Shown here piece after piece: positions 19,901 through 22,169 of a DNA stretch of 64,000 nucleotides. Made by a program: the position numbers and the translations under genes. The DNA lies in assembly GCA_027490225.1 (NCBI GenBank), contig JAIXYK010000004.1, positions 1 through 64,000 on the forward strand, written 5' to 3'. Source of the stretch: Bacteroidota bacterium. Its GTDB lineage: Bacteria; Bacteroidota; Bacteroidia; M30B66. The notes below the pieces were generated by a model, which did not search any database, was not told the origin of the DNA, and saw nothing but the letters and a program-made list of their open reading frames with translations. Position 1 is the stretch's first letter; each line of letters opens with the position of its first letter.

Positions 19901-20005
19901 AATAATACAAAGCATTATAAATGGCTTCAAAATTTACAAATTAAATCTCAAAAATATGTTTCACTAAAAATGAAAAGAATCACATTTCTATTGAACTATG
20001 TTTGT

Positions 20006-20013
20006 TACTTTTG
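20006..20013 (+). promoter_or_regulatory. -7 element TACTTTTG for the Cys-rich/MbnP operon
   Basis: TACTTTTG is followed after only 6 bases (CAAAGG) by the ATG at 20020. Transcription probably starts at or next to the ATG, so the mRNA is likely leaderless. Confidence 0.65.
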
Positions 20014-20019
20014 CAAAGG

Positions 20020-20394
20020 ATGAAAATCACTTTCGCTTTTCTTTTAAGTCTAATATTACTTTTCCCAACCATAACAAAGGCTTGGCTGTTAGCCGACTTT
20101 ATGGTTCATCAAAAAGAAATAGCTGAAAAATTATGCGAAAATAAGGACAAACCGAAGTTGCAATGCAATGGTAAATGCCAAATGATGAAATCGCTCAAAA
20201 AAGCAGAAGAACCGCAACCTTGGAAATACCAGCATGGCTTTAATGCAATAAAAGAGGTAAAACATATGATGTTTACCAACTTTTCTTTTGAAGCAATTTT
20301 GCCAATCGAATCTCCTTCAAAATTGAATCATTTTTATTTTGCAGTTTATCCCAAGACCTTAATAAAACCGGCCATTAAACCACCTTGTGCTTAA
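20020..20394 (+). CDS. Small exported protein with C-x9-C-x3-C motif
   Basis: This 124-residue protein from ATG 20020 has a signal peptide (MKITFAFLLSLILLFPTITKA). It has four cysteines: 39, 49 and 53 in the pattern C-x9-C-x3-C (KLCENKDKPKLQCNGKCQM) and one near the C-terminus (PPCA). I recall similar CNGKC proteins in Bacteroidota genomes beside metal-handling genes, but no named family. It is first in a three-gene operon with an MbnP-like lipoprotein and a CDVC barrel, so a role in periplasmic copper or other soft-metal binding is inferred. The methionines next to the cysteines (CQMM) would suit that. Confidence 0.75.
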   Translation: MKITFAFLLSLILLFPTITKAWLLADFMVHQKEIAEKLCENKDKPKLQCNGKCQMMKSLKKAEEPQPWKYQHGFNAIKEVKHMMFTNFSFEAILPIESPSKLNHFYFAVYPKTLIKPAIKPPCA

Positions 20395-20465
20395 TTTGAA
20401 ATCTTAGTCTCTATTAACGGTCATTTTCTTGACCACCATTTCAAATTTAATTTTTAAGCACAATT

Positions 20466-21266
20466 ATGAAAAATTTTCAATTCCTTTTGACCTTAACATT
20501 AGGTCTTTCTTTAACCATTATTACATCTTGTAAAAAAGATGATCCAATTGTTGATCCTCCTACTGTAATAACTCCTCCTACAATTGGAACTGTAGAATTA
20601 CGCGTTGAACATGTTTTCGGAGCCGATAGCATTCCGTTCGCTTTAAATACTTCCAATTTTTTTGTTACTGCATTGGGAGACAGTGTCAAATTCAATACTT
20701 TTAAATATTATATCAGCAATATTGAACTATTAAAAGCAGATGGTTCTTCTTTCAAACAACCAGAAAGTTACTTTCTTGTAGATGCATCTAATGAAGCAAG
20801 TAATAAACTGCAGATTCCTAATGTTCCACCTGCAGACTACACAGGAATAAGATTTTTACTTGGTGTAGATAGCACACGCAACGTTTCTGGTGCACAAGAA
20901 GGAGCTTTAAGTCAAGCTAATGGAATGTTCTGGACTTGGAATTCAGGCTATATTTTTAGCAAAGCAGAAGGCACTTCACCTCAAGTTACTGCATCTGGCA
21001 ATAATTTTACCTTACATGTTGGAGGTTTCAGCGGAACAAACAAAGCAATTCAAACAAAAACAATCACCTTTAATGGTGAAAAACTAACTGTAAATGGTAC
21101 ACGCGAAGCAGAAATTCATTTATCAGTTGATGTAAAAGAATATTTCTCAGCTGCAAATCCAATAAACCTTGGAACCACCAATTTTCTAATGTCTCCAGGG
21201 GCAACAGCCAGACAAATCTCTGAGAATTTTAAAGAGATGTTTTCTTTTGAGCATTTACATAACTAA
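20466..21266 (+). CDS. MbnP-like lipoprotein
   Basis: This 266-residue protein has a signal sequence ending in IITSC, so it is a predicted lipoprotein acylated at Cys22, followed by a Pro/Thr-rich linker. The rest matches the MbnP family: GTVELRVEHVFG, GDSVKFNTFKYYISNIEL, YTGIRFLLGVD, GMFWTWNSGYIF and LHVGGFSG. In methanotrophs MbnP and the related CorA bind copper through a site that includes kynurenine, formed from tryptophan by the diheme enzyme MbnH. Here tryptophans 156 and 158 lie in the conserved FWTWNSGY motif. No mbnH-like gene is present. It is followed after 6 bp by the barrel gene. Confidence 0.85.
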   Translation: MKNFQFLLTLTLGLSLTIITSCKKDDPIVDPPTVITPPTIGTVELRVEHVFGADSIPFALNTSNFFVTALGDSVKFNTFKYYISNIELLKADGSSFKQPESYFLVDASNEASNKLQIPNVPPADYTGIRFLLGVDSTRNVSGAQEGALSQANGMFWTWNSGYIFSKAEGTSPQVTASGNNFTLHVGGFSGTNKAIQTKTITFNGEKLTVNGTREAEIHLSVDVKEYFSAANPINLGTTNFLMSPGATARQISENFKEMFSFEHLHN

Positions 21267-21272
21267 TGTAAA

Positions 21273-22169
21273 ATGTTTTTTAAATATTTAAGAACAGTTG
21301 TGCTGATAGCATTTATCAGCACAACTGTTCCTTCTTTACGCGCCTGCGATGTTTGCAGCGGTGGAGGAGCTGTTAATTTTATGGGCATTTTACCTCAATT
21401 TCAAAAGAATTTTGCAGGTTTGCGCGTACAACACAAGGCATTTAAAAATTCCCAACTCAATAGCACAGACTATTTCAATAGCATAGACCTTTGGGCACGA
21501 TATAATCCAAATAAGAACTGGCAACTATTTGCATTTTTACCATATCAAATAAACCAGCGCAAAATCAATCATGTTAATACTCCTGTGCAAGGCGTAGGTG
21601 ATGCAACTTTCATGGCTGGTTACTTTGTTTTCAATAATAGCGATAGCATAAACAATAAATTGAAATGCACCTGGATGCTTGGTGCCGGAACTCAATTGCC
21701 AATTGGCAGCACTAAAGCAACCACTTGGCTTGGTCTCCCCGCCGATGCTGTATTACAACCCGGAACTGGCGCTATTGGAGCAAATGTATTTTCAACATTT
21801 ACATTTCGTGTTAAAAAGTTTGGTTTTGCTGCAGACGCACAATTTAGAACCATGAGCACAAATAACGCAGGTTATCATTTTGGAAACAGAATTAACACCT
21901 CCTTGCGAATTTTCAGAACATTCGCTTATAGAAATGCTAACTTCATTCCTCAGTTTATTGGCACTTTCGAAACCAGTAAAAAGGATATGAGTCGTGGTGT
22001 TCAGGTGAACGAAAGTGGCGGAAACTCAGCATTTATTGGCGCAGGTTGCGATTTTTTTAACCGCAATATAGCCATTGGTTGTAGCGTATTGCAAAGTCTT
22101 GAACTACAGAAAAACATTGTATCTGCAACCGGTCTACGTGTAATGTTTTCGTTAACTAAGACGTTTTAA
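21273..22169 (+). CDS. Outer-membrane barrel protein with N-terminal CDVC motif
   Basis: This 298-residue protein has a signal peptide followed by CDVCSGGG (Cys25, Cys28) at or next to the predicted mature N-terminus. The rest is a run of amphipathic beta-strands ending in aromatic residues (WQLFAFLPYQINQ, FGFAADAQFRT, FRTFAYRNANFIPQFIG) and a C-terminal strand ending in F, as in outer-membrane barrels. I recall Bacteroidota relatives labelled transporter family protein. The CxxC at the mouth of a barrel, in an operon with MbnP, suggests metal uptake or export across the outer membrane. Substrate unproven. Confidence 0.78.
   Translation: MFFKYLRTVVLIAFISTTVPSLRACDVCSGGGAVNFMGILPQFQKNFAGLRVQHKAFKNSQLNSTDYFNSIDLWARYNPNKNWQLFAFLPYQINQRKINHVNTPVQGVGDATFMAGYFVFNNSDSINNKLKCTWMLGAGTQLPIGSTKATTWLGLPADAVLQPGTGAIGANVFSTFTFRVKKFGFAADAQFRTMSTNNAGYHFGNRINTSLRIFRTFAYRNANFIPQFIGTFETSKKDMSRGVQVNESGGNSAFIGAGCDFFNRNIAIGCSVLQSLELQKNIVSATGLRVMFSLTKTF

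Follow-up and report, generated by a model that had tools for sequence, protein, structure and literature searches.

An envelope operon of Bacteroidia with an MbnP-family lipoprotein, seen in a form that lacks an adjacent MbnH gene

The locus lies in a 64,000-nucleotide stretch of Bacteroidota DNA, the whole of which we refer to as the window. Three genes follow one another on one strand with short gaps, encoding a small cysteine protein with a CNGKC motif (the CNGKC protein), an MbnP lipoprotein and an outer-membrane barrel, in that order. A first-pass annotation of this DNA had described three consecutive genes with the motifs C-x9-C-x3-C (CNGKC), FWTWNSGY and CDVC, and each of these is present in the trio's proteins. 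Its placement of the trio also holds, except for the start of the first gene, which it put at TTG 20002; that codon just precedes a promoter box, so ATG 20020 is the most likely start. The features are as follows.

20006..20013, forward strand: TAnnTTTG promoter -7 box (TACTTTTG), assigned by sequence, 6 nt upstream of the first-gene ATG
20020..20394, forward strand: CNGKC protein, first gene of the operon, with an N-terminal hydrophobic segment and C-x9-C-x3-C
20466..21266, forward strand: MbnP-family lipoprotein, by Pfam PF20243 and the fold of 7L6G
20529..20531, forward strand: codon of the MbnP lipobox Cys22, a Cys in 58/59 aligned MbnPs
20931..20939, forward strand: WxW motif W156-T-W158, candidate kynurenine site, placed against the 7L6G WxW through alignment with a Deinococcus MbnP
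21015..21017, forward strand: MbnP His184, conserved, putative metal ligand
21249..21263, forward strand: C-terminal EHLHN tail of MbnP, typical of operon-type MbnPs
21273..22169, forward strand: CDxC-headed outer-membrane barrel with a FapF/COG4313 fold
21345..21356, forward strand: CDVC head of the barrel (Cys25, Cys28); C25, D26 and C28 are nearly invariant in 40 relatives

The CNGKC protein matched no Pfam or NCBIfam family. An alignment of 33 relatives gives the consensus LCxNKxKPxxxCxGKC and a C-terminal PP. The TAnnTTTG box, which we take to be the Bacteroidota -7 consensus, is followed within 12 nt by an in-frame start in 90 of 144 CNGKC genes versus 50 of 604 other genes, counts that include some loci that are near-copies of one another. 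At the same distance it precedes none of 142 barrels and none of 134 MbnPs. This enrichment supports the CNGKC gene as the head of the operon, and the spacing suggests that its transcript is leaderless or nearly so. The start codon a few nucleotides after the box is seen in the CNGKC genes of loci L046-L235 and at 20006-20020 in the window.

The second gene had been annotated as an MbnP-like lipoprotein with a conserved Trp motif, and both parts of that description are borne out. Its product matches Pfam PF20243 with E=1e-54 and 185.8 bits (gathering cut-off 27), while its score against the MbnP_like_WxW equivalog TIGR04052 is 51 bits, under the cut-off of 140. Searching solved structures by sequence, with the protein and its profiles, gave nothing useful, and a fold search was required. 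The predicted model (pLDDT 90.6) matched Methylosinus MbnP (7L6G) with a Z-score of 17.2 over 210 residues and an rmsd of 2.9, the next entry having a Z-score of 4.9. CorA and MopE are absent from the fold-search entries, which does not count against kinship. In the EHLHN tail, H263 is present in 33/59 and H265 in 30/59 aligned MbnPs; the tail is missing from the two paralogues on contigs C23 and C19 of the same genome.

The barrel was modeled with a pLDDT of 87, and its fold matches the FapF channel 5o67 (E=3.8e-10) and the COG4313 channel 4rl8 (E=1.4e-8). By sequence it matched no family, including Pfam PF13557 (Phenol_MetA_deg); a relative, L094, matches PF13557 with E=5e-9.

To place the trio in context, we compared 326 sampled Bacteroidia genomes, in which the barrel occurs in 105, MbnP in 250, CCP/MauG in 272 and CNGKC in 178. 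A CNGKC gene shares a gene run with 74 of the 82 barrel homologues in Bacteroidia, which argues against a chance arrangement and agrees with the earlier proposal of a conserved multi-gene envelope system including both cysteine proteins. MbnP is present in 53 of these 82 loci, 40 of them with MbnH and 13 without. Common arrangements are CNGKC-barrel (20/82), CNGKC-MbnP-MbnH-barrel (19/82), CNGKC-barrel-MbnP-MbnH (13/82) and CNGKC-MbnP-barrel (7/82), the window being one of the last seven. The same operon was seen in 80 labelled loci, and SCO1 follows it in most Pedobacter; the neighbourhood that the first-pass annotation had proposed to look for in other Bacteroidota genomes is conserved. Within the same taxonomic order, the trio is found in three genomes; in two, MbnH adjoins the barrel, and in one of these two MbnP lies directly upstream. 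Upstream of CNGKC the gene content mostly differs between loci, and no export pump was found in the operon. The window trio is one state of a larger Bacteroidia operon. The suggestion that it forms a complete pathway without MbnH is unsupported, because most MbnP-bearing homologous operons include MbnH. Operons lacking MbnH are dispersed over the MbnP tree, on which 9 changes are counted, no fewer than 4 of them forced.

Several variants were observed alongside these arrangements. At 24 loci (L086 and 23 others) there is a gene for a His-rich lipoprotein of roughly 130 aa that matches no Pfam family. It lies nearly always downstream of the barrel, and it often stands beside CNGKC-barrel where MbnP and MbnH are missing. 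At L055 (G061:C1:123400-125200) MbnP is in two pieces and MbnH in three, through assembly error or decay. Horizontal transfer to Glaciecola was considered for L174 (CP034120.1, labelled Glaciecola amylolytica) and rejected; the flanking genes look Bacteroidota-like, so the label is doubtful.

We then asked where the genome encodes enzymes of the MbnH type. It contains four MbnP genes and three MauG/CCP genes, the latter on contigs C23, C19 and C14. Because these sit only on other contigs, no MbnH adjoins the window MbnP, in line with the initial statement that no cytochrome or peroxidase gene is adjacent. For all three enzymes the best family is TIGR04039 (MbnH), with scores under its cut-off. 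An MbnH-family gene adjoins the MbnPs on C23 and on C19, the enzyme on C14 is an orphan, and the fourth MbnP is interrupted by a contig end. An HMA protein is encoded next to the C23 pair. Among the other genomes with an operon lacking MbnH, MbnH-family genes were found elsewhere in 15 of 16 distinct genomes, from two sets (7/7 and 10/11) that have G005 and G080 in common. More broadly, a CCP/MauG gene is present in 246 of 250 genomes with MbnP versus 26 of 76 without, counts that ignore shared ancestry. One genome whose operon lacks MbnH, G200, carries an MbnH that falls in the operon clade but is an orphan, no MbnP lying near it (G200:C34:50813-51826, L126).

In a survey of 191 distinct MbnPs, the 138 with an adjacent MbnH have His184 in all 138 and WxW in 131. 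The 12 MbnPs that are instead paired with a small CX4CH monoheme lipoprotein, PSCyt1-like with a score just under the cut-off, have neither residue set (WxW 0/12, His184 0/12). Since all 12 form one clade (support 99), this loss counts as one event, not twelve. Of the 39 with neither neighbour, WxW is kept in 35 and the His in 35. The monoheme arrangement, MbnP followed by a CX4CH lipoprotein of about 125 aa with WxW and the conserved His lost, is seen at L257, L258, L261, L265, L267 and L268, and at L258 the MbnH-type and monoheme-paired kinds of MbnP share one operon.

The window MbnP retains W156, W158 and H184, suggesting that the WxW/His184 site is still under selection. As it keeps both WxW and His, action of an MbnH in trans is the best reading of these sequences. 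Of the two options offered by the first-pass annotation, the modification being supplied from elsewhere is the one that fits best, with MbnH-family genes in the genome and both elements of the site kept. The other was an MbnP class that binds metal without kynurenine. Under such a scheme the Trp pair would be structural and the Cys proteins would supply or replace the missing ligand, and it draws on the lack of MbnH in the operon of the window and 12 other MbnP-bearing operons, and on the equal conservation of CNGKC and the barrel with and without MbnH across the 82 barrel loci. It also draws on G144 and G339, where no MbnH was found even though WxW and His are kept, which means that MbnH is not strictly required for retention. 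Against this stand the loss of WxW and His184 once the monoheme protein replaces MbnH, and the L203 MbnP, sister to an MbnH-linked MbnP, from which the adjacent MbnH and the site are both gone. The window protein, by contrast, keeps the site in a genome that encodes MbnH-family enzymes. A WxW-less class is indeed found, in a separate clade paired with a small cytochrome; that clade may be kynurenine-free, whereas a kynurenine-free MbnP at the window locus is unlikely. Points against the reading with MbnH in trans are that both MbnP-adjacent MbnHs of this genome have partners of their own, and that the scores for TIGR04052 and TIGR04039 stay below the cut-offs.

Copper is the metal to which analogy points. 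The hints are the 7L6G fold of MbnP, SCO1 in relatives and the HMA protein at the C23 pair; CopC/CopD adjoin the MbnP-MbnH pair of Deinococcus, and sister CNGKC operons carry TonB-copper-like receptors. The kynurenine copper protein CorA is produced under low copper (PMC3912023), and together with the TonB receptor operons this leads us to infer uptake rather than export. A role instead in metal export or detoxification, or in peptide secretion by way of the FapF-like barrel, is quite improbable: the nearest barrel fold, FapF, is indeed a polypeptide secretion channel, and sequence cannot reveal transport direction, but the operon has neither an export pump nor a conserved upstream gene, the receptors of the sister operons are importers, and CorA is made when copper is scarce. 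A decaying remnant of a four-gene operon would account for the missing MbnH and for a barrel just 24-28% identical to relatives of the same order. This is very improbable, given three intact genes with a promoter box and the key residues retained, and an intact trio in three genomes of the same family (L011, L012, L015).

The sister operons recur at L263, L264, L266, L270 and L271, where CNGKC is accompanied by a YtkA-like lipoprotein and a TonB receptor; in the three receptors scanned the best family is TonB-copper, under the family cut-off. Weak matches to MbnP at L263, L264 and L271 were rejected: Pfam places the L263 protein as YtkA-like, and those of L264 and L271 align with it. At L269, L273, L274 and L275 a TonB receptor directly follows CNGKC, two of these being of the siderophore type with an adjacent PepSY-type protein. 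Because CNGKC also heads siderophore-receptor operons, its metal is not only copper, and the protein may serve more than one.

Taken together, we interpret the locus as a variant, lacking MbnH, of an envelope operon found across Bacteroidia, whose most likely role is to bind copper at the outer membrane and take it up. The MbnP Trp is probably converted to kynurenine by a distant MbnH; we give this reading a probability of roughly 0.58. The conservation of the operon, the folds, the retention of the site, the MbnH-family genes in the genome and the repeated absence of MbnH from the operon are direct observations. In the proposed mechanism, the Cys-headed, FapF-type barrel would let copper pass or retain it, the lipid-anchored MbnP would bind it at the WxW/His184 site, and the small CNGKC thiol protein would hand it on within the periplasm. 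The WxW Trp would probably still become kynurenine through a diheme enzyme of the MbnH family whose gene lies at another site in the genome. The metal, the direction, the modification in trans and these handover steps are what we infer.

More tentatively, and at somewhat less than even odds, the operon could be viewed as an undescribed envelope metal module of Bacteroidia in which the leaderless CNGKC gene and the FapF-type CDxC barrel are fixed and the metal lipoprotein and its maturase are exchangeable. The exchangeable states would then be MbnP with MbnH, MbnP with an MbnH in trans (the window), a site-less MbnP with the CX4CH monoheme protein, and the His-rich lipoprotein.

MbnP and MbnH are best known from the copper biology of methanotrophs, and we found nothing on MbnP in Bacteroidota in the literature searched. 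Here MbnP occurs in 250 of the 326 sampled Bacteroidia genomes, and its gene often belongs to a recurring operon alongside two protein families left unnamed by the libraries. The operons without MbnH make the action of a diheme maturase on substrates encoded elsewhere testable, and the monoheme-paired MbnPs, which have lost WxW/His, can serve as a naturally occurring negative control for the kynurenine site.

In relation to known systems, the protein family is known and the operon variant is new. The trio shares with the MbnP/MbnH pair (PF20243/TIGR04039, Methylosinus 7L6G) the MbnP family, its fold, the lipoprotein character, WxW and MbnH-family genes in the genome, but its operon has CNGKC and a CDxC barrel instead of MbnH, and its MbnP falls below the TIGR04052 cut-off. 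The idea of a surface copper protein with kynurenine and a diheme partner is common to CorA/CorB and MopE/SACCP of methanotrophs (PMC3912023), whereas the window MbnP belongs to a different sequence family and has no methanotroph context. FapF/COG4313 channels share the barrel fold, and lack the CDxC head and the metal-operon context. Operons of the TonB-dependent copper receptor (TIGR01778) have, in some Bacteroidia, CNGKC followed by a YtkA-like lipoprotein and the receptor, in contrast to the non-TonB barrel of the window operon.
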